This document shows positions 11,852 to 62,002 of a stretch of 64,000 bases of DNA, piece by piece; the first letter of the stretch is position 1, and every line of letters begins with the position of its first letter. The stretch is from positions 62,001 to 126,000 of the forward strand of contig JANSWU010000002.1 in the NCBI GenBank assembly GCA_024743315.1, given 5' to 3'. The notes beneath the pieces were generated by a model. The model was not told where the DNA came from and did not search any database. It saw nothing but the letters and a program-made list of their open reading frames with translations. This stretch comes from Hyphomonadaceae bacterium (lineage in GTDB: Bacteria; Pseudomonadota; Alphaproteobacteria; Caulobacterales; Hyphomonadaceae). Both the position numbers and the translations under genes were made by a program.

Positions 11852-12916
11852 TCAGACGCGCCAGGCGTTTTCGTGGCGGTCAAGCAATTCGGCAACAAAG
11901 GCGTCGAGCCGGTCGCGTTCGATCAAGGTCACAATACAACCGCCGAACCCGCCACCGGTCAGCCGTGCGGCTTTCGCGCCAATGCTCAACGCGTCATTGA
12001 CCAGATCATCGATGACCGGAGTTGAGGCTTCGAAATCCTGCGAATAAGAACGATGACTTTCATTCATCAAAGCGGCAAAGGCGTCGAGATCGCCAACCTT
12101 CATGGCGTCAATTGCAGCAAGGGTGCGCTTGTGTTCGGTCATCACGTGACGGGTGCGCTTGCACAAATTCTCGGGCAAACGTGCCAGGGCTTCAATCTGG
12201 GTTTGATCGAGCCGGCACAGTTCATTCGTTTTCAGGATTTCTGAGGCTTGCTGGCATTCTTCAAACCGGGCCTTATATCGGCCATCGGCGAGCTCGCGGC
12301 GGACTCCGGAATGGATCACGGCAAAGCCCCAGTCCGATGGAATTTCAATCACTTTATAACTGAGGTCGCTCGTGTCGAGGGCGAGGGCTTTGCCATAATC
12401 GGCGAGGCCGACCGCCATTTGATCCATGATCCCGCACGGCATGCCGATATAATCATTCTCGACCGCGCGCGCATATTGCGCAATCGCGACCGGCGTTGTG
12501 GTAACCTCGCCAATCCTCGCCGCGGCGCGCAGGATGGCCGTGATCAGGGCGGCCGAGGATGAGACACCGGCCCCATCCGGCACGTCGCTTTCGATGAAGA
12601 GATTCACACCGCCAGCGAGCCATCCTAGCGCTGCAGCTTTGTCGAGGGCTCCGACTGCGTAATCTGTCCAATCTCCGCGTTTCGGGTCGCCGACCGGGCG
12701 CTCGACGGTGTCATTGAAACGGCTCGACTTGATTACGATCTGGTTGGTGTCATTACGCGACAGCGCGACCTGGACCCGTCGCTGCAAAGCAGCTGGCAGG
12801 ACCGCGCCACCATTATAGTCTGTGTGTTCGCCTATCAGATTGACGCGTCCGGGGGCCGAGGCAGCTATCAAAGGCGAGGTGCCAAACGTCTCCTTGAATC
12901 CTTCAACTGGGTTCAT
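11852..12916 (-). CDS. galK: galactokinase
   Basis: GHMP-family kinase that phosphorylates galactose at C1, first step of the Leloir pathway. Signature motifs are present: APGRVNLIGEHTDYNGG at about residues 21-37 (galactose-binding), the ATP-binding PDGAGVSSSAALITA, and the late RLTGGGFGGCIVTL. The length of 354 aa is normal but slightly short. Its ATG overlaps the galT stop by 4 nt (ATGA), so galT-galK form one translationally coupled operon read leftwards. It supplies half of the galactose branch of the galactoside/glycerol locus. Confidence 0.96.
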   Translation of the reverse strand: MNPVEGFKETFGTSPLIAASAPGRVNLIGEHTDYNGGAVLPAALQRRVQVALSRNDTNQIVIKSSRFNDTVERPVGDPKRGDWTDYAVGALDKAAALGWLAGGVNLFIESDVPDGAGVSSSAALITAILRAAARIGEVTTTPVAIAQYARAVENDYIGMPCGIMDQMAVGLADYGKALALDTSDLSYKVIEIPSDWGFAVIHSGVRRELADGRYKARFEECQQASEILKTNELCRLDQTQIEALARLPENLCKRTRHVMTEHKRTLAAIDAMKVGDLDAFAALMNESHRSYSQDFEASTPVIDDLVNDALSIGAKAARLTGGGFGGCIVTLIERDRLDAFVAELLDRHENAWRV

Positions 12917-14004
12917 AGCGCGCCTCTCAGCGCCTCAGCGGCCTGGTGAGGCAAGACATCGACTGTAAATACGCCGGTCGCTTGCTCAACAGAAGCGAGA
13001 AACTTGACCCGGTTAGGCGCTCGCAGAAGCGGATAGAATTGTGCCGTAAACTGGAACTTGCCGTCCCGGCCATGAGGCGCGGCATGGAGGCTCAACATGC
13101 ACGGGGTTTCGCGCCCGAAGAACGCATCATAGCGGCGCACCGTGTCACCAAGCAATTGCGCAAAGCCCTCAGCCTGTTCCTCCGAAAAGGCCCAAGGACC
13201 AGATACCGGGTCTTGAGCAGAGATCCAGACTTCATATGGGAAGCGGGCAAAGCGCGGTGCATAGGACACCAGGCCACCGGCTTCAGAAATCAAGTAGGGC
13301 GCACCCCAGCTTTCAACGTCGGCGGCGAGATCATAACCCTGCTCGAACGCATCTGCAGCGAACTGTTGGGGTTGTGGCACAATCGGAAAGCCATAAATCT
13401 GACCGTGCGGGTGATGCAGGGTAACCCCCACTTCGTCGCCGCGATTTTCAAACGGCAGGACAAAGGCACATCCGGCCTCAAACAGAGCTTGATACCGATC
13501 GATCCAGGCTTCTACCAAAAGCCGTCGGCGCGCTTGGCTCAACGTTGCCAGCGAGCCTTGTGCGTCCGGCGAATACACAATCACTTCGCAAGCGCCTTTC
13601 GCCGCCTGCAGTTTCAGCGAGGACGCGGCAGGGTCCGGCGCTTCGGGATACAGGCTGGGAAAGCGATTGCTGAAGACCGCAAGTTCAAAGTCTTCAAACG
13701 GGATTTCGGTCAGCGGCGCACCCGGTTTGCTGGGGGCGAGCGGGTTCGCCGCGGCGCTTGGCTTATAGGTGCGATTCTGGCGCGCAGCGGCATATATCGC
13801 CCAGTCTCCGCGCAGGGGATGGAACCGCAACTCAGACCCCGTCACGGTCTGCAGGTCGTCGCCCGTCACGCGCGGCAATGTGTGAGGTTCATAACCATAG
13901 AAGAACAGATTCCGACCATCCGATTTGATGTGGTGCCGACGATGAATGTCGTGCCCCCCGGCTTGCCGGGTCAACACCTTCATTTTGTCAGGCTTGAGCT
14001 TCAT
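12913..14004 (-). CDS. galT: galactose-1-phosphate uridylyltransferase
   Basis: Exchanges galactose-1-phosphate with UDP-glucose. The active-site HPHGQ is in LHHPHGQIYGFP (about residue 210), preceded by FENRGDEVGVT. The N-terminal part carries RFHPLRGDW and NRFPSL, as in the family, and the C-terminal half is complete (363 aa). The first ATG is at 14004; an ATG at residue 8 is possible. The promoter region is shared with the divergent alpha-galactosidase and carries a GlpR-type operator 45 bp upstream. No galE or galM is present in the window, so UDP-galactose recycling must be encoded elsewhere. Confidence 0.95.
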   Translation of the reverse strand: MKLKPDKMKVLTRQAGGHDIHRRHHIKSDGRNLFFYGYEPHTLPRVTGDDLQTVTGSELRFHPLRGDWAIYAAARQNRTYKPSAAANPLAPSKPGAPLTEIPFEDFELAVFSNRFPSLYPEAPDPAASSLKLQAAKGACEVIVYSPDAQGSLATLSQARRRLLVEAWIDRYQALFEAGCAFVLPFENRGDEVGVTLHHPHGQIYGFPIVPQPQQFAADAFEQGYDLAADVESWGAPYLISEAGGLVSYAPRFARFPYEVWISAQDPVSGPWAFSEEQAEGFAQLLGDTVRRYDAFFGRETPCMLSLHAAPHGRDGKFQFTAQFYPLLRAPNRVKFLASVEQATGVFTVDVLPHQAAEALRGAL

Positions 14005-14048
14005 GCGCGGTCCATCTTTGATAGGATTTGGAATAGTATCGCTAGATT

Positions 14049-14064
14049 TGTTCGTATTCGATCA
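14049..14064. promoter_or_regulatory. predicted GlpR-type operator, galT side
   Basis: TGTTCG-TATT-CGATCA, a 6-4-6 inverted repeat with one mismatch, 45 bp upstream of galT. It has the same TGTTCG-N4-CGA core as the sites between glpD and glpK. E. coli GlpR operators have a TTCG-N4-CGAA core, and a GlpR orthologue is encoded 2.5 kb away. Binding is inferred. Confidence 0.6.
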
Positions 14065-14217
14065 TTTGTAAAAAGGCTATGCCTGAATCTGTCAAACGGA
14101 TGAATTTTTACGCTCATGTGGCCGTAAAAGTTGAGGAATGCGTGTAACTTGATGGGGTTAGCGTGCGGCGGTCAAAGGTCCAGATGTTCGAATGAATCGC
14201 GTTTTAGCGCGGAGAAA

Positions 14218-14233
14218 TTTTCGATTTCGACAA
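14218..14233. promoter_or_regulatory. predicted GlpR-type operator, alpha-galactosidase side
   Basis: TTTTCG-ATTT-CGACAA, an inverted repeat with one mismatched pair, 80 bp upstream of the alpha-galactosidase ATG. A further TGTTCG half-site lies at 14185-14190. Together with 14049-14064 it places a candidate site on each side of the galT/alpha-galactosidase divergent promoter region. Confidence 0.5.
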
Positions 14234-14313
14234 AAATTTACTCTATTTCCAACATTTGTCTTTTCTGCCAAATGGAATGAGACGTGAAAGACGCGCTCGC
14301 CGGAGGACCCCAT

Positions 14314-16455
14314 ATGCCAGACACGCAAGGTTTTGTGACCCTCACAGCCGGAAATACCAGCCTGGTTTTGGATTGTGCCATCGGGCAACGTCCAAGCATT
14401 CTATATTGGGGATCGAGGCTGGGCCAATCGGATCCTGAGCTATTGAAGCTGATGACGACCCGCCAGCATGCCCCGGGCGGCGCCGATGCTGAAGTTGGCA
14501 GCTCCTTGCTGAATGAAACTGGCTCCGGCATCGCTGGTCTTTCCGGATTTTCCGCGCACCGCAACGGTACGGCCTGGGCCAGCCTGTTTCGCGTCACAGA
14601 GGTTCGCCGGCCCAAGCCACATCGCGTCGAAGTCATTTGTATGGACGACACGACGAAAGTGCGGGCAACGCATTTCATTGGCTTTAACCCAGACAGCAAT
14701 TTGCTGACCTGTCAGACCCAGATCGAAAACCTTGGCGAGACCGATCTCGCGATTGACTGGTGTGCTTCAGCGAGCTTGCCGCTCGATCCGCGTGCGAGTC
14801 GATTGTTCGGGTTTACCGGGCGCTGGTCCGGTGAGTTTCACCTGGAAGAGGTGGCGCCGTTTCTTGGCAGTTACGTTCGAGAGAACAAGAATGGTCGCAC
14901 CAGTCATGATAATTTCCCGGGATTGGTCGTCGGTACGGAGGAAACGCATGAGCAGGCTGGGCCTTGCTTTGCCTTTCATTTGGGGTGGAGCGGCAATAAT
15001 CGGGTCCGTGTCGATCGGTTAAGTGATGGTCGGGCTTTCGTGCAAATGGGCGAGTATTTCTTTCCTGGCGAAATGTCGCTGGCGCCTGGTGGCACCTATC
15101 GCACGCCAAGACTCTATGCCGGCTTCACCAGTCGCGGTTTCAGCGCCTTGTCGCGCAAGTTCCACCACCATCTCAAGCATACGGTGATGGATGGCCGGAT
15201 CAAAAACAAGCCGCGACCGATCCACTATAATACTTGGGAAGCGGTGTATTTCGATCATGATCATGACACGCTGTTCAAGCTCGCCGAGAAAGCTGCGGAA
15301 GTTGGTGCCGAACGGTACATCCTGGACGATGGTTGGTTCGGCTCACGCCGCAATGACAAGGCGGGCCTCGGCGATTGGTGGCCCTCAGAAGACGTCTATC
15401 CGGAGGGCCTTGGCCCATTGGTCGATCATGTCACCGGGCTCGGCATGGAGTTCGGGCTGTGGTTCGAACCGGAAATGGTCAATCCGGACAGCGAGCTTTA
15501 TCGCAATCATCCCGATTGGGTCCTGCGCGCCGAAGGGGTCGAACAAGTACCGTTCCGCAGCCAATTTGTGCTCGACCTAACCCGGCCGGAAGTCAGCGAC
15601 TATTTATTCGATCACATGCATAAGCTGCTGAGCGCGCATGATATTGGCTATGTGAAATGGGACATGAATCGCGATGTGCATCACCCTGGCAGTCGCGGCC
15701 GGCCGGCGATCAATCAACAGACCCGGGCGCTCTACGCCCTGATCGAGCGTATCCGTACTGCGCATCCAAAGCTCGAAATTGAAAGCTGCTCCTCGGGGGG
15801 CGGGCGCGCCGATTATGGAATCCTGCGGCGGACCGACCGGATCTGGACCTCGGACAGCAATGATGCGCTTGATCGCCAACGCATTCAGCGCGGAGCTTCG
15901 CATTTCTTCCCGCTCGAGATTATGGGGGCGCATGTCGGGCCTGAGACCTGTCACATTACCGGGCGCCGCCTGACCATGGAGATGCGGGTGGCGACGGCGC
16001 TATTCGGGCATATGGGCATGGAACTCAATCTGCTCGAAGAGCCAGACGAAAACCTCGAAATCTTGAAAGCCGGACTGGCCTTGCACAAACAACACAGGGC
16101 TCTGATACATGATGGCGAGTTTCATCGCCTCGACACGCCAGAACATGTTAATGCGATCGGCGTGGTCGCGCCCGATCAGTCAGAAGCGCTATTTTCCTGG
16201 TGCAATTTGACCGGGCACCGCCAGACCATTCCGGGGCGTCTTTATGTGCCTGGGCTGGATCTCAGTAAGGCTTACCGGACTCGTATTGTCTGGCCGAACC
16301 CGGTGCGGTCGATCTCTCGCCCGTCGATTTTGGAAGCGTTAGATCTTGGCGGTGACGGTGCCGTATTGCCCGGAGAAGCCTTGGCGCATGTCGGCTTGCA
16401 GGTTCCCCTGCTGCATCCAGAAACCTGCCTGATTTACCATTTTGACGCGGTTTGA
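14314..16455 (+). CDS. cytoplasmic GH36 alpha-galactosidase
   Basis: Hydrolyses terminal alpha-galactosyl bonds. GH36 landmarks: RYILDDGWFGSR, GLWFEPEMV, the nucleophile Asp450 in VKWDMNRD, the ESCSSGGGR loop, and the acid/base Asp514 in WTSDSND. Overall it resembles bacterial group I GH36 enzymes of the RafA/AgaA type (about 720 aa). It has no signal peptide, so it acts on a galactoside imported intact. The ATG at 14314 is preferred because GGAGGA lies 6 nt before it; a GTG at 14284 is in frame. It is followed by glpR, 73 bp on, and diverges from galT. Released galactose would feed GalK/GalT. The aglycone is not told by the sequence; context points to glycerol. Confidence 0.93.
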   Translation: MPDTQGFVTLTAGNTSLVLDCAIGQRPSILYWGSRLGQSDPELLKLMTTRQHAPGGADAEVGSSLLNETGSGIAGLSGFSAHRNGTAWASLFRVTEVRRPKPHRVEVICMDDTTKVRATHFIGFNPDSNLLTCQTQIENLGETDLAIDWCASASLPLDPRASRLFGFTGRWSGEFHLEEVAPFLGSYVRENKNGRTSHDNFPGLVVGTEETHEQAGPCFAFHLGWSGNNRVRVDRLSDGRAFVQMGEYFFPGEMSLAPGGTYRTPRLYAGFTSRGFSALSRKFHHHLKHTVMDGRIKNKPRPIHYNTWEAVYFDHDHDTLFKLAEKAAEVGAERYILDDGWFGSRRNDKAGLGDWWPSEDVYPEGLGPLVDHVTGLGMEFGLWFEPEMVNPDSELYRNHPDWVLRAEGVEQVPFRSQFVLDLTRPEVSDYLFDHMHKLLSAHDIGYVKWDMNRDVHHPGSRGRPAINQQTRALYALIERIRTAHPKLEIESCSSGGGRADYGILRRTDRIWTSDSNDALDRQRIQRGASHFFPLEIMGAHVGPETCHITGRRLTMEMRVATALFGHMGMELNLLEEPDENLEILKAGLALHKQHRALIHDGEFHRLDTPEHVNAIGVVAPDQSEALFSWCNLTGHRQTIPGRLYVPGLDLSKAYRTRIVWPNPVRSISRPSILEALDLGGDGAVLPGEALAHVGLQVPLLHPETCLIYHFDAV

Positions 16456-16528
16456 GACGCAGCGCGAGGTTTGACATGAGACTTGCAGGGCTCTCATCTA
16501 AGTCAGGGATGCAATGAGGTAGGCTGAA

Positions 16529-17314
16529 ATGAGTGAAGCGGACGTTTCCAATCTTCCGACGCGGCAAATCCAGATTCTCGAGCTAATTCGCTCGCAGGGC
16601 TATGTCGCGACCGAGCAGCTTGTCCGTCATTTCGGAGTGACGCCGCAAACCATTCGGCGGGATATCAATACGCTTTGCGAGCTGGATCTAATCGAACGCT
16701 TCCATGGCGGCGCAGGACGGATCGGGAATGCCTATAATCAGCCCTATCAGGACCGGCTGCATGAGGGCATGGAGGCCAAGCGCAAGATTGCTCGCATGGT
16801 TGCCAAACGCATTCCAGAGGGCGCCTCACTCTTCCTGAATATCGGGACGACAACAGAGGCACTGGCGACCGAGCTGGTCGGCCGCAATGACCTGCGCATT
16901 GTCACCAACAATATCAATATCGCCAATATGATGCGCGAAACCGATGGCTCGGATGTCATGATTGCCGGCGGCTTCGTGCGTCAGTCTGATGGCGGTATTG
17001 TTGGTGAAGCGACGACTGAATTCCTCAAACAATTCCGTCTCGACATTGGTGTGATCGGGATTAGCGGGATTGATGAGGATGGCTCGCTATTGGATTTCGA
17101 TTATCAGGAGATCCGCTCCGCGCAGGCGATCATCCAGAATTCACGGACCGTGTTTTTGGTCGCTGACCATGCCAAGTTTGGTCGCCGCGCGATGATCCGG
17201 CTCGGCCAGTATGATGACATCGATCACCTATTTACCGACCGCACCCCGCCCGAAGCCTTCATGGACGCCATCCGGACGAGCGACATGGAGCTCCACGTCG
17301 CGGGCGATTCCTAA
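16529..17314 (+). CDS. glpR: GlpR-like DeoR family repressor
   Basis: 261 residues that track E. coli GlpR through almost its whole length: the helix-turn-helix GYVATEQLVRHFGVTPQTIRRDI, then LRIVTNNINIANMM, GGIVGEATTEFLKQFRLDIGVIGISGIDEDGSLLDFDY, and the late VADHAKFGRRAM. E. coli GlpR is released from DNA by glycerol-3-phosphate; the same effector is likely here. It sits not with glpD/glpK but directly after the alpha-galactosidase, inside the galactoside cluster. Operators matching its expected core lie in both divergent promoter regions of the locus (14.05-14.23 kb and 23.54-23.65 kb). Its stop overlaps that of the SSS transporter by 4 nt. Confidence 0.88.
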   Translation: MSEADVSNLPTRQIQILELIRSQGYVATEQLVRHFGVTPQTIRRDINTLCELDLIERFHGGAGRIGNAYNQPYQDRLHEGMEAKRKIARMVAKRIPEGASLFLNIGTTTEALATELVGRNDLRIVTNNINIANMMRETDGSDVMIAGGFVRQSDGGIVGEATTEFLKQFRLDIGVIGISGIDEDGSLLDFDYQEIRSAQAIIQNSRTVFLVADHAKFGRRAMIRLGQYDDIDHLFTDRTPPEAFMDAIRTSDMELHVAGDS

Positions 17315-18870
17315 GCCGCGGGCGCCGGCGCCGACCGGCCAAGGGTCAGCTCAGCCTTGCGACCAAACACGATCAGATTTGAGATGAGGGCGGTGCCAAT
17401 GCTCACCACCAGGGTCACGAACATGTAGTGGATATAATGCACGCTCGCGAGCGTCGCACCGAGTCCTTGCTCGGGCGAGATGCCAACATGCTGGTACAGT
17501 CTGAAGCTGAAAACCGCATAGACCAGCACGCCGGTGACAACCCCGATAATGGCGGCCCAGGCACTGACATTGCGGAAGGCGAGGCCGACGATAAAGGCCG
17601 ACAGGATCGGCATGGAGAGCAGGCCGTAAAGCTGCTGCACGGTGTTGATGATGCTTTCTTGCGAGGCAAAAATTGGCACCAGAGCGATGGCCAGCACGGT
17701 CATCGCAATCGAGACATACATGCTGAGCTTCGGAACATCGCGGGCTTCCTCAATATAGGATTCATGGAAGTCGCAAACATAAAGCGCGGCTGACGCGTTG
17801 AGGATCGAATTGAACGTGGTCAGCACGGCCGCTGCAATCGCGGCCGCAAAGGCACCAGACAAGATGGGCGGCAGGATGTCGCCGACAATCATGCCATAGG
17901 CCGCATCGCCAACATCGCCGTATAGCTTGTAGGCGACCACGCCCGGGACCACGGCGATGATGGGGACGATGAGCAAACGAATGCCTGCAGCGGCGAGGAT
18001 GCCCTTGCGAGCCTCTTCGACCGTTGGCGAGGCCATGGCGCGCTGGGTGATCGTCTGATTGGTGCTCCAATAGAAGATCTGGATAAAAATCATGCCGGTC
18101 AAAAGCGTGTGCCAGGGGATTGGCGTTTCGCTACCATCTTCAAGCTCGCTGCCAATGAACATGTTGAGGCGCTCCGCCGGGACGTCTGAGAAATCCCAGT
18201 TGATGGCGTTGAGGGCGAGGACCACGACCAACACGGCGAGCGACAGGATCAGCACGCCGCTATAGGTGTCCGACACCGCGACCGCGCGCAGACCGCCGAG
18301 AATGGCGTAAAGGGCGCCGACAATCGCGAAGGTTACGGCCATGACAAAAATCGTCGAGTCGACTTCAACCGCCGTGCCCACAAAGAGCCGTTCGCCGAGC
18401 ACGCTGGAAAAATCCGCGCCTGTGGTCGATTTCAGGAATAGCGATCCGCCATAAAGAATGGCTGGCAGGAAGATGAACAAGTTACCGAGCAGAAACAGGA
18501 CCGAAATCACCGCGCGAATATGCTTATTGTCATATTTGCGCTGGAGCAGCTCTGTCGTGGTGGTGCACTTGTTGCGGTAATAAATCGGGATGAAGACATA
18601 AGCGAGGATAAGCAGGCCGACCACAGCGGCCAGTTCCCACCAGGCGAGCAGCAACATCTGATTGCCATTCATGCCGACGAGTTGATCCGTCGACAGATTG
18701 GTCAGGGTAATCGATCCCGCCACGAAATACCAACTCAACCCGCCATTCGCGAGGAAATAGTCATGATCAGAGCCGCGATCGCCCGACGGCGCGTTGCGGC
18801 AGCTGAGATAGGTCAAGAACCCGATCACGGCTGTGATGAAAAAGAAAATCCCGACCTGCAGCGTATTCAT
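17311..18870 (-). CDS. sodium:solute symporter (SSS family), probable sugar/glycoside importer
   Basis: 519-residue inner-membrane transporter with about 14 hydrophobic helices. SSS features include the early DYFLANGGLSWYFVAGSITLTNLSTDQLVGMNG and YAILGGLRAVAVSDTYSG. The segments WSTNQTITQRAMAS and EARKGILAAAGIRLL resemble the galactose symporter vSGLT (NQYIIQR and AQKGI), so a sugar or glycoside is the likely substrate. It lies downstream of a TonB receptor and glpD on the same strand and would carry the galactoside across the inner membrane. Start ATG 18870 has GAGGAAACGCAGG upstream. The exact substrate is inferred from neighbours. Confidence 0.85.
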   Translation of the reverse strand: MNTLQVGIFFFITAVIGFLTYLSCRNAPSGDRGSDHDYFLANGGLSWYFVAGSITLTNLSTDQLVGMNGNQMLLLAWWELAAVVGLLILAYVFIPIYYRNKCTTTTELLQRKYDNKHIRAVISVLFLLGNLFIFLPAILYGGSLFLKSTTGADFSSVLGERLFVGTAVEVDSTIFVMAVTFAIVGALYAILGGLRAVAVSDTYSGVLILSLAVLVVVLALNAINWDFSDVPAERLNMFIGSELEDGSETPIPWHTLLTGMIFIQIFYWSTNQTITQRAMASPTVEEARKGILAAAGIRLLIVPIIAVVPGVVAYKLYGDVGDAAYGMIVGDILPPILSGAFAAAIAAAVLTTFNSILNASAALYVCDFHESYIEEARDVPKLSMYVSIAMTVLAIALVPIFASQESIINTVQQLYGLLSMPILSAFIVGLAFRNVSAWAAIIGVVTGVLVYAVFSFRLYQHVGISPEQGLGATLASVHYIHYMFVTLVVSIGTALISNLIVFGRKAELTLGRSAPAPAA

Positions 18871-18916
18871 GCCTGCGTTTCCTCAAATCTATTTTGTATC
18901 TTGTTAGATGGTATGG

Positions 18917-19017
18917 CAGCGCGGAGTCACCCCCGCGCTGTCACAGTTTGCACCTCCGGGAGGATCGGGAGGTGCAAGGGGTGCGGACAAGCGCCTCAAC
19001 CTAGCGGGTCGAGGCGC
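18917..19017. other. three consecutive hairpins between TonB receptor and SSS transporter genes
   Basis: The 158-bp gap holds three clear inverted repeats: CAGCGCGG/CCGCGCTG (18917-18940), TTGCACCTCC/GGAGGTGCAA (18948-18977, perfect 10-bp stem) and GCGCCTC/GAGGCGC (18991-19017). None is followed by a strong U-run on the minus strand, so they are weak as classic terminators. They more likely set relative mRNA levels of receptor and transporter by pausing, processing or 3'-end protection. Confidence 0.6.
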
Positions 19018-19028
19018 TCGTATTGGTT

Positions 19029-21941
19029 CTAGTAAGTCGCGCGAACGCCGAGTTGGTAGCGCGCACCTGTGTCTGAATATGTCAGGAACCGGTTCTCGAA
19101 GCGTGAGAAGTCACGCGTATCTTCGTCCGTGATATTGATGCCTTCGAAGAAGATCTGGAACCGCTCGCCAACATCATATGAGGCCGAGAAGTCGAGCTGA
19201 CCAAAGGCTTCACGCGTGCGTGGTTCTGAGAAATTCGAGAAGCACTGGAATAGGAACTCGTCGCGATAATTATAAGCAAGACGGGCTGAGATTCCGTCTT
19301 TTTCATAGAAACCACTCAGGTTGAACGAGTGCGGCGACAGACCGTTATAGTCACAGTCAGATGCCCCCGATCCTTCAGCCCGATCGATATTGCTGGTCAC
19401 ATAAGTGTAGTTCGCAGCCGCCCCGAGGCCGTCCCATGGCTCAGGCAATTGATCGAAGGTCCGCTGATACGCGACTTCAAGACCTGTAATCGAGCCGGTT
19501 TCACCGTTCCGAGTGCGGGTGTCCTGGAAGTCGACATTGACCAGGATCGGGTCAGGACCGGTTGGGTTTTGCGGGTTTCCGACAGGGATCTGAACCTGTC
19601 CTGCAACCGGCAAGGTCTGGGCTTCGAGGAAGTTCTCAAAATCCTTGTAAAAGGCTGCAACCGAGAAATAGCTCACATCATCGAAATACCATTCGAAGGA
19701 GGCGTCCCAGTTCGAAGACTCAAAGGCTTCGAGAGTCGGGTTGCCACCGCCAGAAACCGGGGCATTAGAGCGACCGCCAAAAGTGTTGTTCACCCCCAGC
19801 GCTGTCAGCGTCGGACGGGTCACAGTCTCGGAGAAGCTGAACCGAACGATCGTGTCTTCTGTTGGCTCCAGCTTGATGTTCGCAGAAGGCAGGAAGTTGA
19901 TGTAATCGTTCGAGACAGACACTGCCGTGGTTGGTCCGAAATCGACGAGCAGCTGGGTATCTCCCGGCGTCTCGCGGAATTGCAGCACCGGCTGGTCAAA
20001 GCCGCTGGAAACCACATCGGTCTGTGCCAGGCGGAACCCGAAATTGGCCGACCAAGGCAGCTCACCGCCAAAATCGCCTTCCCATTCCGTATTCGCGTAA
20101 AAGGCCGTGATCTGTTCTTCAACGCCGAAGCTGCCACCCGGGTTGAAGGCGGGTGTGTAGAAGCCAAAGACCGAATTGCCTGCCGCATCGCGGCGCGCGA
20201 TCAGGTCGGCATCATTGGCGGCCCGAGCCGCACCGGTCAGCCCGTTGCGGTTTGGATCGGTGATGTTGGCAGTGTCGTTCAATTCGGCAAAGGCGTCGGC
20301 GATCGAAAAGCCCAGGATTTGACTTGGAACCGAACCGGACCCGCTGGCATCGCTCAGGAAACCGTCAAAGGAGAACGGGCTTAGAATGCCTGGATTCTGC
20401 AGCGCGACATTGTAGCCGCAATAAGCACAGAAAATGTCGCCGCCCTGTGAGGGTGAGAAATTGGTGAAATTGTCCCGTGTCTTTTCGCGATCCGTATAGC
20501 TTGCGCCAAAGGCGATCGCAGATAATGGCCCGCGATTGATCGACCAGCGACCATCGGCGGCGAATTCCATCACATCATCTTCGACCATGTTGCGTTCAAC
20601 ATTGACGAAGTGCAGGCGCTGGATCGACGTATCGGTCAGGCCAGACAGGTTTGTGATGGTCGAAATGCCATCATTGTTGGGCAGCTGGATGAGCGGCGAT
20701 GTCGGGGCCAGGGCGCCAATCACGATGAATGGATTGGTGCCATCGCGCTGAGCGTTGGACGCCGAGACATCAAACTCAAGAGACAGGCTGTCAGAGACAT
20801 CCCATTCCAGGTTGCCGCCAATCATATAGGTTTCAGCCAGGCGATTGTTCGAGGTGACGACATTGTCGTTTTGAGACAGGCCGACGGTTGCCGCGATGGC
20901 GGGGTTGCGCGCGGCAAAGTCTTCGCCTGGCCGGCTGAACGACACGACTGTCCCATTTGCATCGATCACGGGATCAATGAAAGGCGGGCTGAAGAAGCCC
21001 GAGAACTGTGTCGCGAAGGATTGCACGTCAAACTCTGTGTACAGCCCATCGAGCGTGAAGGTCATGCGATCATTCGGGCGGAATTGAGCGGCGCCATTCA
21101 CCGTCAGTCGCTCGCGATCCTGAATGTCGCGGCTGTGAACCACTTGTTGTTGCACACGAGCGCCATCCGGGAGTGCGCCGATTGTGGTCAAGCCGGTCGA
21201 GCCTTCAGGTGCCAGGACGGCCGGATCGCCGCTGCGCAGTGCATAACCATTGGTAAACGAGCTGTCTTCCTGAACAGCGCGGTCCGAATAAGACGCCCCG
21301 AGCAGAAAGCCGAACGAATTGTCGGCATTGGTCCAGGAGCCGACGGCGGTTAGATCCGGGCTCACGTCTTCGCGCAGCGTGTCATACGTGCCGGCGGCAG
21401 AAACCGTGAAGCTTGTGCCGGGGCGATCGAATGGACGCGCGGTGACGACATTCACGGTCGAGCCGATGCCGCCAGACTGAAGGTTAGGCGTTGCGGTTTT
21501 GAAGACTTCGGCGCGTTGGATAATGTCGGATGACAGAACATCAAACGAGAATTCACGGCCGTCATTATCCGTCGCAATCGTGCGGCCATTTAGCAGCACC
21601 GTATTAAACTCTGGGCCGAGGCCACGCACGGTGATGAACTGACCTTCGCCACCAGAGCGGTCGATGGCGACGCCGGTAATGCGCTGTAGGGATTCCGCGA
21701 CATTTGCGTCGGGAAACTTGCCGACATCTTCGGCCGAAACGGCATCTACAATCTGGTTCGAGTCGCGCTTCACATCGAGCGAGGCTTTCAGGCTGCCACG
21801 AATGCCTTTGACCGTGACCGTCTGTAGGGTGCGTTCCTCGGCCGCTTCCTCCGTGCTCGCGCCGTCTTGGGCGAGTGCGTTCGTCCCGCACATGAGGGCG
21901 GCCACGCTGGCCCCGACAATGATCTTTGTTTTGTGTCCCAT
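19029..21941 (-). CDS. TonB-dependent receptor, Caulobacter/Xanthomonas carbohydrate type
   Basis: Outer-membrane active transporter of 970 aa. It has a cleavable signal (ends GTNALAQ), a TonB-box-like LQTVTVKG, then the plug domain (SAEDVGKFPDANVAESLQRITGVAIDR ... ITVRGLGPEFNTVLLNGR) and a long beta-barrel ending in an aromatic residue (GVRATY). The plug matches the TonB-Xanth-Caul group, whose characterised members mostly move carbohydrates. The SD GGAGGAAATA is excellent. It follows glpD by 61 bp and precedes the SSS transporter, so glpD, receptor and symporter look co-transcribed. That position makes it the likely outer-membrane route for the galactoside. Confidence 0.92.
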   Translation of the reverse strand: MGHKTKIIVGASVAALMCGTNALAQDGASTEEAAEERTLQTVTVKGIRGSLKASLDVKRDSNQIVDAVSAEDVGKFPDANVAESLQRITGVAIDRSGGEGQFITVRGLGPEFNTVLLNGRTIATDNDGREFSFDVLSSDIIQRAEVFKTATPNLQSGGIGSTVNVVTARPFDRPGTSFTVSAAGTYDTLREDVSPDLTAVGSWTNADNSFGFLLGASYSDRAVQEDSSFTNGYALRSGDPAVLAPEGSTGLTTIGALPDGARVQQQVVHSRDIQDRERLTVNGAAQFRPNDRMTFTLDGLYTEFDVQSFATQFSGFFSPPFIDPVIDANGTVVSFSRPGEDFAARNPAIAATVGLSQNDNVVTSNNRLAETYMIGGNLEWDVSDSLSLEFDVSASNAQRDGTNPFIVIGALAPTSPLIQLPNNDGISTITNLSGLTDTSIQRLHFVNVERNMVEDDVMEFAADGRWSINRGPLSAIAFGASYTDREKTRDNFTNFSPSQGGDIFCAYCGYNVALQNPGILSPFSFDGFLSDASGSGSVPSQILGFSIADAFAELNDTANITDPNRNGLTGAARAANDADLIARRDAAGNSVFGFYTPAFNPGGSFGVEEQITAFYANTEWEGDFGGELPWSANFGFRLAQTDVVSSGFDQPVLQFRETPGDTQLLVDFGPTTAVSVSNDYINFLPSANIKLEPTEDTIVRFSFSETVTRPTLTALGVNNTFGGRSNAPVSGGGNPTLEAFESSNWDASFEWYFDDVSYFSVAAFYKDFENFLEAQTLPVAGQVQIPVGNPQNPTGPDPILVNVDFQDTRTRNGETGSITGLEVAYQRTFDQLPEPWDGLGAAANYTYVTSNIDRAEGSGASDCDYNGLSPHSFNLSGFYEKDGISARLAYNYRDEFLFQCFSNFSEPRTREAFGQLDFSASYDVGERFQIFFEGINITDEDTRDFSRFENRFLTYSDTGARYQLGVRATY

Positions 21942-22002
21942 TATTTCCTCCTATGAATCTTTTTTAGTTTGGTCTTGGAGATGCCAGGACGGGCATCGAT
22001 AG

Positions 22003-23493
22003 TTACGCCACGAGCCGGTTTTCAAACTGGTCTCGCAGCGCTGAAATCTGGTCTGTGGACAGGTGCAGGCCGAGCTTTGTGCGACGTTGCAAAATGTCCT
22101 CTGGTGTGCGCGCGAATTCGCGCTCAATCAGATAATCAACCTCCTTCTGATAAAGCCCGGCGCCATAATGGTGGCCGAGATCTGATAAGTTTTGCGCCGA
22201 ACCGAGCACCTGATCGATGCGCGTCCCATGGGTGCGGGCCAGCCGGTGCAACGTGTTCGGATCGAGCCAAGGAAAAGCCGTTTGGCAGGCCTGCTCAAAG
22301 CGCTCGAAATCAGCGTCCGGAATATCGCCCCCCGGCAGCGCGACCTTTGCAGTCCACGGCGACTGCGCGTTTGGCAGAACGTATTTGAGCTGTTTCAGGG
22401 CGTCTTCGGCGAGCTTGCGATAGGTGGTGATTTTGCCGCCAATGACGGACAGCATTGGTGCCGCGCCGTGGTGCTGTAGCTTGAGCACATAGTCGCGCGT
22501 GACCGAGGATGCGTCTTCGGCCTGATCTTCGAAAAGCGGGCGAACACCGGAATAGGTCGAAATGACATCGCTCGGCGTAATCTGTTGCTTGAAATAGTCA
22601 TTGCTGACCGCGCAGAGATATTGGATCTCTTCGGCTGAGGCCTCGACCTGATTGAGGTCGTCTTCGAAGGGCAAGTCGGTTGTGCCGATCAAAGTGAAGC
22701 GACCTTCCTCATACGGAATCGCAAAAATGATCCGTCCATCACCCGCCTGGAAGATGAAACAACGCTCATCATCAAACAGACTTGGCACGATGATGTGGCT
22801 GCCTTTAACCAGCCGAACTTGCGGGGCGTTGCTGCGCGTGCCGGCCTGGCCCGCGACACGATCGACCCAGGGTCCGGCCGCATTGATGACAACCTTTGCG
22901 TCGACTGTCATATCGGCGCGGCCATCGATACGAAGCTTGGCGCGCCAAGTGCCTCCATTCGGGTCGAGCGCCACGCACTCTGTGCGGGTCATGATCGTCG
23001 CGCCGCGTTCGCTCGCGTCCATCGCGTTGAGGACGACCAGGCGGGCATCCTCGACCCAGCAATCAGAATATTCAAAGCCTTTTTGAAACCGGTCCTGGAG
23101 GGGGGCAAAGACCCGGCTCGTCTTGCGACTCAAGCTCTTGGTTGCGGGCAGTAATTTGCGACCGCCAAGATGGTCATAGAAAAACAGGCCAAGACGCAGG
23201 AGCCAGGATGGCCGCAAGTCTTGATGATGCGGCAGGACGAATCGCAATGGCCAGATAATGTGCGGCGCTGCTTTGAGCAGTGTCTCACGTTCGATCAGCG
23301 CTTTGCGCACCAGTGCGAAGTCATAATGCTCAAGATAGCGCAGACCGCCATGAATGAGTTTGGTGCTGGCGGAAGATGTATGTGAAGCGAGATCGTCTTT
23401 CTCGCACAGCAAGACCTTGAGACCACGCCCCGCCGCGTCGCGGGCAATACCTGCGCCATTAATGCCGCCACCAATGATCAGGATGTCGTACAA
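22003..23493 (-). CDS. glpD: aerobic FAD-dependent glycerol-3-phosphate dehydrogenase
   Basis: Oxidises glycerol-3-phosphate to dihydroxyacetone phosphate at the membrane, passing electrons to quinone. The FAD-binding motif DILIIGGGINGAGIARDAAG starts at residue 3, followed by SSASTKLIHGGLRYLE as in E. coli GlpD; the C-terminal domain is complete (496 aa). The start is a TTG (GGCAGGGACG upstream); the frame is closed by a stop above it, leaving no ATG. It diverges from glpK across 221 bp that hold GlpR-type operators, the nearest 46 bp from this start. It heads a leftward operon with the TonB receptor and symporter. Confidence 0.95.
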   Translation of the reverse strand: MYDILIIGGGINGAGIARDAAGRGLKVLLCEKDDLASHTSSASTKLIHGGLRYLEHYDFALVRKALIERETLLKAAPHIIWPLRFVLPHHQDLRPSWLLRLGLFFYDHLGGRKLLPATKSLSRKTSRVFAPLQDRFQKGFEYSDCWVEDARLVVLNAMDASERGATIMTRTECVALDPNGGTWRAKLRIDGRADMTVDAKVVINAAGPWVDRVAGQAGTRSNAPQVRLVKGSHIIVPSLFDDERCFIFQAGDGRIIFAIPYEEGRFTLIGTTDLPFEDDLNQVEASAEEIQYLCAVSNDYFKQQITPSDVISTYSGVRPLFEDQAEDASSVTRDYVLKLQHHGAAPMLSVIGGKITTYRKLAEDALKQLKYVLPNAQSPWTAKVALPGGDIPDADFERFEQACQTAFPWLDPNTLHRLARTHGTRIDQVLGSAQNLSDLGHHYGAGLYQKEVDYLIEREFARTPEDILQRRTKLGLHLSTDQISALRDQFENRLVA

Positions 23494-23538
23494 CGTCCCT
23501 GCCTTCTTTGCTCGCCATCTTCATAATCAGACTTTTAA

Positions 23539-23554
23539 TGTTCGTAAACGATAA
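23539..23554. promoter_or_regulatory. predicted GlpR operator, glpD side
   Basis: TGTTCG-TAAA-CGATAA, an imperfect 6-4-6 repeat 46 bp upstream of glpD. A related half-site, TAAACGAATA, lies at 23566-23575. Both share the core of the perfect site at 23631-23646. Confidence 0.6.
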
Positions 23555-23630
23555 AAATTAGCGCGTAAACGAATATTTGAATACGTTGCGACGATGTCAT
23601 ATTCGATGCTGCACTGCGCAATAGGGTTTG

Positions 23631-23646
23631 TGTTCGAAAACGAACA
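23631..23646. promoter_or_regulatory. predicted GlpR operator, glpK side
   Basis: TGTTCG-AAAA-CGAACA is a perfect 6-4-6 inverted repeat, 68 bp upstream of the glpK GTG. The TTCG-N4-CGAA core is that of E. coli GlpR operators. It is the best operator in the window and anchors the reading of the weaker sites. Confidence 0.75.
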
Positions 23647-23714
23647 TTTCTTGTGAATGGGTCTTGTGCCTGCCCGCAAAAACCGGCTAGCGTCTCCAAA
23701 ACTGGGAGGAAATC

Positions 23715-25205
23715 GTGTCGGCTGCTGATCTCATTCTTGTTATTGACGAGGGAACTACCTCGACCCGGGCGATTGTTTTTGATCAGTCCTTTGCGCCTGT
23801 TTCGCAAGCGCAGGAAGAGGTGTCTCTGACATATCCCGCAGACGGATGGGTTGAGCAGGATGGTGAAGACATCTGGCAAAAGACGCTGGCCGTGTGTCGC
23901 ACCGCAATCGAGGCAGCGGGGGGCGTCGATCGGATTGCCGGCATTGGCATTACCAATCAGCGCGAAACCACATTGGTCTGGGATCGCGAAACCGGCATTC
24001 CAATCGCCCCGGCAATCGTCTGGCAGGACCGTCGCACCGCGAATGTCTGTGCCCTGTTGAGAGAGCAAGGGCACGAAGCGGCCGTTCAGGCCGAGACGGG
24101 CTTGCTCATAGATCCCTATTTCTCCGGCACCAAAGTCTCCTGGTTGCTGAACCAGGTCGAAGGCGCACGGGCAGATGCTTTGGCGGGGAAATTGGCCTTT
24201 GGTACTGTCGACGCATTTTTGATCTGGCGGCTGACGGGCGGCCGAGTGCATACCACCGACGTCACCAATGCCTCGCGCACTCTGCTATATCCGTTGAGTG
24301 TCGAGCCAGGAACGCGCTGGTCGCAAAACATGCTCGATCTGTTGGATGTTCCGGCCTCGCTTTTGCCGGAGGTGAAATCTTCCGGGGCAAAGTTCGGTGA
24401 AACCGATCCGGATCTGTTCGGCCGGGCCATTCCCATCTTGTCAGCCATAGGCGACCAGCAGGCGGCTTTGGTTGGGCAAGCCTGCCTATCACCGGGGACG
24501 GCTAAAATCACCTACGGCACAGGCGCGTTCCTGGTTGCCAATACCGGTTATGAGCGTCCCGCCTCCGCCAATCGATTGCTCGGGACGATCGGTTATTCGA
24601 TCGAGGGCGGCGGGGAGGCCTATGCGATTGAGGGGGCGATCTTCAATGCCGGGACCGTGGTGCAATGGCTGCGCGACGATCTCGGCCTGATTTCAAATGC
24701 CGCCGAAAGCGAGGCGCGCGCGGCCGAGCTTTCAGACAATGGCGGGGTCTATCTGGTGCCAGCCTTTACCGGGCTCGGCGCGCCGCATTGGGATGCCGAT
24801 GCGCGCGGGACAATTACCGGCCTGACGCGCGGGGCGGGTGCTGATCACATTGTTCGCGCGGGCCTGGAAGCGGCGGCGTATCAGACCCATGATCTGCTCG
24901 AAGCCTTTGCTGCCGATGGCGCAGAGGTCGGGTTATTGCGGGTCGATGGCGGCATGGCGGCGAATGATTGGCTGATGCAATTCATCGCCGATATTTGCGG
25001 GCGTCCGGTTGAGCGTCCCGACTTTATGGAGATGACAGCGCTCGGGGCGGCGGCCCTGGCCGGTATGCAGCTCGGATGTCTGAGCCAAGAAGACTGGGCG
25101 GCGCGACGGGCCCCGGGGCGCCGCTTCGAGCCCCGCATGGATTCAGAGACCCGGGGCGATTTGTTGGCGGGGTGGCGCAGGGCGCTGCACCAGACGCTCG
25201 CTTAA
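23715..25205 (+). CDS. glpK: glycerol kinase
   Basis: FGGY-family kinase making glycerol-3-phosphate. The N-terminus LVIDEGTTSTRAIVFD, the substrate loop GITNQRETTLVWDRETG, WQDRRT and the late VDGGMAANDWLMQFIADI are all typical; 496 aa is full length. The start is GTG with GGGAGGAAATC upstream. It is the rightward partner of glpD in a divergent pair under GlpR-type operators. No glpF facilitator is nearby, which fits glycerol being released inside the cell. Its stop shares bases with the putA stop on the other strand. Confidence 0.96.
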   Translation: MSAADLILVIDEGTTSTRAIVFDQSFAPVSQAQEEVSLTYPADGWVEQDGEDIWQKTLAVCRTAIEAAGGVDRIAGIGITNQRETTLVWDRETGIPIAPAIVWQDRRTANVCALLREQGHEAAVQAETGLLIDPYFSGTKVSWLLNQVEGARADALAGKLAFGTVDAFLIWRLTGGRVHTTDVTNASRTLLYPLSVEPGTRWSQNMLDLLDVPASLLPEVKSSGAKFGETDPDLFGRAIPILSAIGDQQAALVGQACLSPGTAKITYGTGAFLVANTGYERPASANRLLGTIGYSIEGGGEAYAIEGAIFNAGTVVQWLRDDLGLISNAAESEARAAELSDNGGVYLVPAFTGLGAPHWDADARGTITGLTRGAGADHIVRAGLEAAAYQTHDLLEAFAADGAEVGLLRVDGGMAANDWLMQFIADICGRPVERPDFMEMTALGAAALAGMQLGCLSQEDWAARRAPGRRFEPRMDSETRGDLLAGWRRALHQTLA

Positions 25206-60970: not shown

Positions 60971-62002
60971 ATGAACATGACCAAACTTCAAATGAGTGCC
61001 AGTGCGGGAATCCTGGCTCTGGCAATGGCGCTGACTGCGTGTGGGAACTCGACCTCCGATCCGGAAGCGACGACCGACACCGAGGTGAGTACTGAGGCGA
61101 CGACGAGCGCGGATGAACGTCCGACCAAAGAGGCCCTATTGGCGCGGTTTGATGACGCCCTGGCTGGCGCTCAGGCCACCAATGGACCAGGATCTCCGGC
61201 CATGTGGACGCTTGCCGATGAGGACACCACGATCCATATTTTCGGCACGGTGCACTTGTTGCGCCCGGATCTGGAATGGCGTTCTGAGGCCTTCGACACC
61301 GCGTTCGCCAACGCCGACACGGTTGTTTTCGAAGTCGACATGAAAAGCGAAGAAGCCCAGCGCGCCATCGCCACCGACTTTCTCGCCCGCGGCATGTACC
61401 AGGATGGGCGCACCCTCAAGGGCGTGCTGAATGACGAGGATGAAGCGGTCATCAGTGCGGCCTTTGATTCGCTTGGCGTGCCGATTGATGCGATGAACAC
61501 GTTCGAGCCGTGGATGGCCTCGGTCAATCTCGGTGTGATGCAGCTGGTCAATGATGGCTATGATCCCAATTCCGGCGTCGAGACCGTGCTGGAGTCCGAA
61601 GCCGTCGCAGCTGGTAAGTCATTTGGCTATCTGGAATCCATTTCGCAACAGGCTGATGCGTTCGACCTGCTGCCAGAAGACGAGCAGATTTCCATCCTAT
61701 ACGAGACAGCCTTATTGCTCGAGGAATCGCCGCGCATGCTCGACCTGCTGGTCGATGAATGGGCCGATGGCGACGTGAACGGGATTGCCACCCTGGTCGC
61801 CAATCCGGACGGGTATGGCTTTACCGATGCCGCTTATCAGTCGCTGCTCGTGGTCCGCAATGAGGCTTGGGTGCCGCAGATTGAAGCCATGCTGGAGGAA
61901 CCAGGCTCGGTCTTCATCGCCGTTGGCGCTGGTCACCTGGCCGGGCCGGACAGCGTCATCACCATGCTACGGGACAAGGGTTACACGATTGAGGGACCCT
62001 AG
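60971..62002 (+). CDS. TraB/GumN family lipoprotein
   Basis: 343 residues. Signal peptide with lipobox LTAC, then a Thr/Glu-rich linker (about 25-50), then the TraB/GumN domain: WTLADEDTTIHIFGTVHLL, FEVDMKSEEAQ, and the end FIAVGAGHLAGPDSVITMLRDKGYTI. The two GxxH motifs (GTVH and GAGH) are the family's putative metal sites, and related proteins have been proposed to be peptidases. The physiological role is not known. Its stop overlaps the YcgN gene on the other strand. Confidence 0.85.
   Translation: MNMTKLQMSASAGILALAMALTACGNSTSDPEATTDTEVSTEATTSADERPTKEALLARFDDALAGAQATNGPGSPAMWTLADEDTTIHIFGTVHLLRPDLEWRSEAFDTAFANADTVVFEVDMKSEEAQRAIATDFLARGMYQDGRTLKGVLNDEDEAVISAAFDSLGVPIDAMNTFEPWMASVNLGVMQLVNDGYDPNSGVETVLESEAVAAGKSFGYLESISQQADAFDLLPEDEQISILYETALLLEESPRMLDLLVDEWADGDVNGIATLVANPDGYGFTDAAYQSLLVVRNEAWVPQIEAMLEEPGSVFIAVGAGHLAGPDSVITMLRDKGYTIEGP

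Follow-up and report, generated by a model that had tools for sequence, protein, structure and literature searches.

A candidate galactosylglycerol utilization locus joining galactose and glycerol catabolism in Henriciella and its relatives

A block of eight genes in a Henriciella genome (Hyphomonadaceae; assembly GCA_024743315.1) joins a GH36 alpha-galactosidase to genes for galactose and for glycerol catabolism. The block was studied within a window of 64,000 nucleotides (positions 62,001 to 126,000 of contig JANSWU010000002.1; G000:C8:62001-126000 in our labels, in which G numbers denote genomes and L numbers fetched loci). Its interpretation as a two-arm galactosylglycerol locus is well supported by sequence comparison, if unproven. 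For the fuller reading, in which GlpR controls the locus and the front-runner among substrates is digalactosylglycerol, the head group left on deacylation of the galactolipid digalactosyldiacylglycerol (DGDG), we have a slight preference. Plastid membranes have galactolipids as their chief lipids. In digalactosylglycerol, glycerol bears two galactoses, one alpha- and the other beta-linked; a substrate of this make-up would account for alpha-galactosidase, beta-galactosidase, galactose genes, and glycerol genes together.

Written with a slash at the galT-GH36 and glpD-glpK gaps, the block reads galK-galT/GH36-glpR and SSS-TBDT-glpD/glpK (TBDT, TonB-dependent receptor), with recJ and putA as outer neighbors; profile matches confirmed all eight of the genes named in the original prediction made from this sequence. 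On the minus strand, galactokinase (galK, 11852..12916; TIGR00131, 260.9 bits, cut-off 226.65) shares 4 overlapping bases with galactose-1-phosphate uridylyltransferase (galT, 12913..14004), which matched PF01087 at E 1.2e-22 (81.7 bits, above its cut-off) and the equivalog TIGR00209 at 89.6 bits, below the cut-off of 102.1. The GH36 alpha-galactosidase (14314..16455, plus strand; PF02065, E 2e-121) is 713 aa long from ATG 14314, a start preferred over GTG 14284 and preceded by a ribosome-binding-like GGAGGA. Its product is probably cytoplasmic, since no signal peptide was seen when the N-terminus from ATG 14314 was judged by eye. Both aspartates of the Melibiase domain, D450 (KWD) and D514 (SD; A1 numbering), are present, invariant in 12 of 12 sequences, and aligned with those of AgaA; we take them to be catalytic. 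A GlpR-like regulator of the DeoR family (16529..17314, plus strand), with NF008154 (PRK10906) as its best NCBIfam match, follows GH36. The minus strand then carries an SSS symporter of the SGLT/YidK kind (17311..18870; PF00474), the TonB-dependent receptor (19029..21941; TIGR01782, 666.6 bits), and glycerol-3-phosphate dehydrogenase (glpD, 22003..23493; NF009906, 743.6 bits), while glycerol kinase (glpK, 23715..25205, plus strand; TIGR01311, 623.9 bits, cut-off 590.35) is the sole copy found in the window genome at E <= 1e-60. The solved structures closest to the symporter were vSGLT (E 2.3e-35) and SGLT1/2. At the residues that we take to form the vSGLT sugar site, the symporter retains N64, Q69, E88, Y263, W264, and Q428, and has W, A, Q, and R at Y87, S91, N260, and position 294 (the last being A in the 2xq2 entry).

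Linkage of GH36 to glp genes extended beyond the window. From a scan of species genomes with a GH36 alignment, the best 80 of 589 confirmed loci were used, a choice of top matches that is no random sample. These were pooled with the loci of the 150 relatives, and six duplicates of a stretch already present were dropped (L033, L040, L043, L045, L052, L054). Neighbors within 10 kb were scored for 112 GH36 rows, 110 of which entered a FastTree tree, the short GH36 pieces of L066 and L067 being left out. A locus was called glp-linked when glpK or glpD (at least 42% identity) lay within 10 kb of GH36, and loci without glp genes and without 5 kb on both sides were set aside as not assessable (21 of 110). 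Among the 58 near rows (GH36 identity of at least 45%), 36 were glp-linked, 14 unlinked, and 8 not assessable, as compared to 0, 39, and 13 of the 52 far rows (below 45%); these rows are related, so not independent, and the counts ignore shared ancestry. All 36 glp-linked rows fell within a single clade of 62 rows with support of 100, and the linkage label changed 11 times on the tree versus a shuffled mean of 28, with none of 500 shuffles as low. Separation of the gal and glp halves in most relatives, which the original prediction had named as fatal to it, was thus not found among near loci, and its central proposal, that one alpha-galactosidase feeds a galactose arm and a glycerol arm, appears sound on the basis of gene content and this linkage.

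The glp-linked loci were not copies of one arrangement: at least eight gene orders were observed in Alpha- and Gammaproteobacteria. Parvularcula has glpK-SSS/GH36-galT-galK-glpR-glpD-GH42, Erythrobacter GH36-glpD-galT-galK, Phycosocius and Sphingopyxis glpK-SSS/GH36, and Caulobacter OR37 GH42/GH36-TBDT-glpR/glpD-glpK; Alteromonas loci L100 and L107 combine glpR, glpK, TBDT, SSS, GH36, an esterase, galK, and galT, and Aliiglaciecola has a further distinct order. In Hirschia maritima (L072, 5404-22082) the order is SSS-GH42-AraC-GH36-glpD-glpK-dgoD-dgoK-aldolase-lactonase-TBDT, dgoD encoding galactonate dehydratase and dgoK KDGal kinase. A simpler explanation would be that a galactose cluster landed once beside an ordinary glp cluster and was then inherited: glpK is near-universal (found in 147 of 150 relatives, as a single copy in all but one of these) and must lie somewhere, and the Henriciella carriers may be one clade. 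Such chance adjacency would not produce several distinct gene orders in two classes, the lack of glp linkage at all 39 assessable far loci, operator-like sites shared by both arms and conserved in Henriciella, or a glpK type belonging to the block within the genus. On the contrast in the GH36 tree and the varied gene orders we rejected it, and regard it as highly improbable.

Within Henriciella the gene set behaves as a unit. Nine other genomes of the genus have a close GH36 (72-91% identity), and the search for a conserved block that the original prediction called for found galK, galT, GH36, glpR, SSS, glpD, and glpK together in seven of them (glpK being truncated by a contig end in one); of the remaining two, one has no SSS and the other lies on a contig that stops after SSS. 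In this genus glpK accompanies the block and is no bystander, since carriers share a type of their own: all 10 carriers have the block type (75-100% identity to the window), as opposed to none of 18 other members, which have a distant type (51-57%); in one genome no glpK was found. The receptor, counted as part of the locus in the original prediction, is present in the window but is not a conserved component, as tblastn did not find it between SSS and glpD in any of the seven Henriciella relatives with both genes in view. In L032 a SapC gene occupies its place, and the gap behind the receptor (18871-19028) holds GC-rich inverted repeats, a picture suggestive of gain or loss of a receptor-linked cassette between SSS and glpD. 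The absence of glpF, previously offered as a sign that glycerol is made inside the cell, holds for the locus, but elsewhere in the genome, on a different contig, a single MIP-family gene gave a partial profile match (G000:C4:565353). MIP genes are scarce in the genus (found in 5 of 29 genomes), so the missing local glpF carries little weight and was dropped as evidence.

Sites resembling GlpR operators precede both arms in the window and in its Henriciella relatives. When scanned at up to 3 mismatches to WATKYTCGWWAWCGMAMAW, which we took to be the E. coli GlpR operator consensus, the window gave nine two-strand matches, amounting to five positions, four of them in the galT-GH36 and glpD-glpK gaps and one, weaker, elsewhere; shuffles of the window averaged 1.89 matches and none of 100 reached nine. 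In the galT-GH36 gap, putative operator 1 (14047..14066) has 3 and 2 mismatches on the two strands, and GTTCGTATTCGATCA recurs there in 8 of 10 aligned rows including the window, the other two rows having shorter gaps without it. Putative operator 2 (14216..14235), nearer GH36, has 2 mismatches and a TTCG core invariant in all 10 rows. The glpD-glpK gap holds putative operators 3 (23537..23556; 1 and 3 mismatches on the two strands), with GTTCGTAAACG invariant in 9 of 9 rows, and 4 (23629..23648; 1 and 2 mismatches), recognizable in a majority of the 9 rows. In alignments of the gaps among Henriciella relatives, the sites form conserved islands amid diverged sequence. Upstream of GH36, Henriciella and its sister genus had sites with at most 2 mismatches in 5 of their 11 regions, against a shuffle mean of 0.02; by GH36 identity, the figures were 7 of 57 regions at 45% or above (shuffle 0.15) versus 0 of 51 below (0.10); scattered single 3-mismatch matches in other loci look like chance. 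Scans for sigma-70 promoters and terminators gave no more matches than shuffles. These comparisons support, without proving, that GlpR controls the galactose arm in Henriciella; the support does not extend to the clade at large.

For transport, substrate, induction, and operator function we infer the following course of events. A small galactosylglycerol would be imported through the TonB receptor and then the SSS symporter; cytoplasmic GH36 would cut off the alpha-linked galactose, which would pass to GalK and GalT, and the residual glycerol would be phosphorylated by GlpK and oxidized by GlpD. Glycerol 3-phosphate would release GlpR from operators before both arms, such that the product of one arm would induce the whole set. 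If the substrate is digalactosylglycerol, its second, beta-linked galactose would be cut in Henriciella by an unlinked LacZ, and in sister lineages by GH42, in or outside the locus, or by LacZ.

Beta-galactosidases did accompany GH36. When 150 relatives were searched by tblastn, 42 carried GH36 at E <= 1e-80; GH42 or LacZ (E <= 1e-60) was present in 42 of 42 carriers as compared to 6 of 108 non-carriers, a genome-level co-occurrence that does not show joint action. Weak GH42 matches (E 1e-10 to 1e-3) in seven non-carriers (G033, G035, G110, G123, G127, G141, G142) were not counted; counting weak matches would give 11 of 108 instead of 6. In three of the carriers (G139, G029, G044) partial genes stand at contig ends, and in a fourth, the Phycosocius-type genome G104, GH42 (G104:C3:52943-54028) reads with three internal stops, either a decayed gene or an assembly error, beside open GH36 and glpK frames. 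Two other gene families followed a similar pattern: galK (E <= 1e-30; 43 of 150 relatives) was found in 38 of 42 carriers versus 5 of 108 others, and SSS in 31 of 42 versus 2 of 108. All 18 of the near-clade genomes searched (two also among the 150) have a beta-galactosidase, 11 of them GH42 and the other 7 LacZ, and eight glp-linked loci include GH42 (L072, L073, L085, L087, L095, L099, L101, L104). The window genome gave no GH42 match, and none of the genes inside the block is a beta-galactosidase; the genome has one LacZ-type GH2 of 1041 aa with all LacZ domains, about 111 kb past the window end. In Henriciella, LacZ was found in all 10 genomes with the block, as opposed to none of the 19 others. 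Of the 58 near rows, 8 have an esterase-like alpha/beta-hydrolase no more than 10 kb from GH36 (one is truncated by a contig end), versus 0 of 52 far rows; that of L107 matches PETase-like and PAF-acetylhydrolase models and has, by eye, a secreted-like start.

These findings bear directly on floridoside or isofloridoside, the red-algal alpha-galactosylglycerols proposed as substrate in the original prediction, from which GH36 alone would yield galactose and glycerol and to which LacZ would be unrelated. To our knowledge floridoside is not to be expected in freshwater blooms. Floridoside is a major red-algal solute, and a GH36 enzyme joins galactose and glycerol to isofloridoside (PMC8509150), so glycerol can fill the acceptor site in this family. 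The window holds the alpha-galactosidase, galactose arm, and glycerol arm that floridoside use would need, with no local beta-galactosidase, no GH42 match in the genome, and a lacZ promoter free of GlpR-type sites, and several carriers from sister lineages are named for agar breakdown or for algae (Catenovulum agarivorans, Pseudocolwellia agarivorans, Shewanella algicola, Thalassotalea algicola). Floridoside leaves the beta-galactosidase unexplained, since its use does not need one: independence from beta-galactosidase, expected if not strictly required, was not seen in any carrier, and GH42 and an esterase stand in some sister loci. One carrier, Ca. Phycosocius bacilliformis, lives as an ectosymbiont on a green alga (PMC5946039), of a lineage linked to freshwater blooms (PMC10008586). 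Floridoside is therefore not specifically supported, and we consider it possible but rather unlikely.

Another alternative is that the locus serves melibiose, raffinose, or galactan oligomers and merely adjoins glycerol genes whose regulator it shares. The marine GH36 enzyme alpha-PsGal cleaves melibiose and raffinose and makes alpha-1,6-digalactosides, with minor alpha-1,4 and alpha-1,3 products, glucose, fructose, xylose, and fucose not serving as acceptors (PMC6213131); its D451 and C494 match the numbering of the near-clade GH36 of P. distincta, a likeness by residue numbering only, which perhaps places it in the near clade. Its digalactoside products and its acceptor range speak for the digalactosylglycerol reading, and its cleavage of melibiose and raffinose for the present alternative. 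Galactose oligomers have been suggested as a carbon source for Phycosocius, galactose being major in its host's matrix (PMC10008586), and GH36 loci below 45% identity often have gal genes without glp. Strain P. distincta 16-SW-7 produces acid from raffinose and galactose and assimilates melibiose (PMC8865838). The type strain KMM 638T (= ATCC 700518T, the strain of L090) neither assimilates melibiose nor produces acid from raffinose (PMC8865838), a point against the alternative but a weak one, because galactose, too, yields no acid with this strain and melibiose is assimilated by two other P. distincta strains. Use of such alpha-galactosides would not explain why glp genes stand in varied arrangements around the near set only, or why GlpR-type sites precede galT and GH36, and none of the ten window proteins scanned with Pfam handles sucrose or fructose. 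We judge this alternative distinctly unlikely.

A number of observations weigh against a GlpR-controlled digalactosylglycerol locus, beyond the relatedness of the rows counted above. The GlpR-like regulator scored 313.6 bits against NF008154, just below the cut-off of 331, and of the 46 near regions not of Henriciella type, only 2 had a GlpR-type site (at most 2 mismatches) upstream of GH36: Parvularcula L073, and Pseudocolwellia agarivorans L089, with a one-mismatch site in its GH42-GH36 gap and no glp gene anywhere in the 22 kb fetched. No glp genes were present at 14 of the 50 assessable near loci, nor on the two contig pieces seen (L050, L066) of the close genus member G005 (RecJ 84%), which carry galK-galT-GH36 and SSS; this genome has the other glpK type. 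The Henriciella carriers may represent one or few events, since RecJ identity to the window is 81-87% in the nine other carriers versus 67-75% in most non-carriers. No lipase or esterase is among the block genes, and alpha-PsGal, as described, cleaves melibiose and raffinose (PMC6213131). GH42 within 10 kb of GH36 was no commoner in near than in far rows (14 of 58 versus 17 of 52), and those of the 150 relatives whose GH36 falls below 45% identity all have a beta-galactosidase, with no glp linkage in the fetched loci; the pairing of GH36 with beta-galactosidase may thus mark galactoside users in general. Henriciella lacZ is unlinked to the block and adjoins a GH3 gene. At the window-genome lacZ there was no GlpR-type site with up to 3 mismatches in the surrounding 20 kb and none with up to 5 in the promoter; control of this LacZ by GlpR is not supported, and the enzyme may serve other sugars. 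The gap between GH3 and lacZ (L150 11115-11385; G000:C8, about 237.1-237.4 kb) holds instead a perfect palindrome, TGTTAGCGCTAACA, which we take to be LacI/GalR-like; the nine other Henriciella lacZ stretches fetched showed no such pattern next to the gene.

Several features of the sister loci deserve mention in their own right. In L072 the GH42, GH36, glycerol, and De Ley-Doudoroff galactose genes are co-directional, and this is perhaps the clearest locus of all for bench work. The compact glpK-SSS/GH36 cassette is common to Phycosocius-type genomes and Sphingomonadaceae (L048, L049, L053, L086, L088 and L079, L080, L081, L083, L108); its high identity between them (glpK 75-81%, SSS 69-84% to L048) suggests horizontal transfer. 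In seven Phycosocius-type genomes the cassette carries the only glpK found. Genes of 600 aa adjoining the Phycosocius-type GH36 were considered as galactonate dehydratases and rejected, being LepA. Divergent GlpD-like flavoproteins (27-30% identity) adjoin the symporter in Paraglaciecola/Aliiglaciecola-type loci L092, L093, and L102, that of L093 having DAO and alpha-glycerophosphate oxidase C-terminal domains; they are possibly a second kind of glycerol-3-phosphate oxidation, and were excluded from the glpD count, where inclusion would raise the linkage.

The open-licence literature searched yielded no tested bacterial operon for digalactosylglycerol or floridoside. In raf and mel operons an alpha-galactosidase and sugar uptake occur as here, but the co-product is sucrose or glucose; the window locus has genes for a glycerol co-product and GlpR-type operator-like sites. 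The lac operon, as we understand it, differs in having a beta-galactosidase and LacI, with neither a glycerol arm nor an alpha-galactosidase. In one respect it is alike: Egel (1979, as cited in PMC8333865) saw galactosylglycerols from galactolipids as a natural substrate. Clusters for sulfoquinovosylglycerol, the sulfolipid head group, are similar in that a dedicated glycosidase splits a plastid lipid head group and the sugar moiety is catabolized, and different in their glycosidases and sugar. The galactolipid idea is itself already in print, as a one-word prediction from 2020: "Galactolipids" is given as the predicted substrate of receptor MASE_00935 of Alteromonas macleodii ATCC 27126 (PMC7190382, Table 1), a TonB receptor that adjoins an alpha-galactosidase and is up under carbon limitation (log2 1.35). 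That system is a single table entry derived from gene neighborhood, in a gammaproteobacterial arrangement; L100 and L107 are possible counterparts to it.

A broader picture may be sketched tentatively, as one that we would not yet back over its alternatives. The locus could belong to a widespread and repeatedly assembled pathway for plastid-galactolipid head groups in Alpha- and Gammaproteobacteria, several of them algae-associated by name, in which the galactose arm can be either Leloir or De Ley-Doudoroff and GH42 and LacZ can stand in for each other as the beta-galactosidase; in Henriciella and its kin, GlpR would have been recruited as a galactoside switch that senses the glycerol end of the substrate and not the sugar. 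If so, these genes would provide a genetic marker for a large and little-traced flow of carbon from algae to bacteria, and would exhibit an unusual control logic, with a glycerol regulator commanding a sugar hydrolase and galactose genes. Egel's question about galactosylglycerols would then become testable in bacteria other than E. coli.

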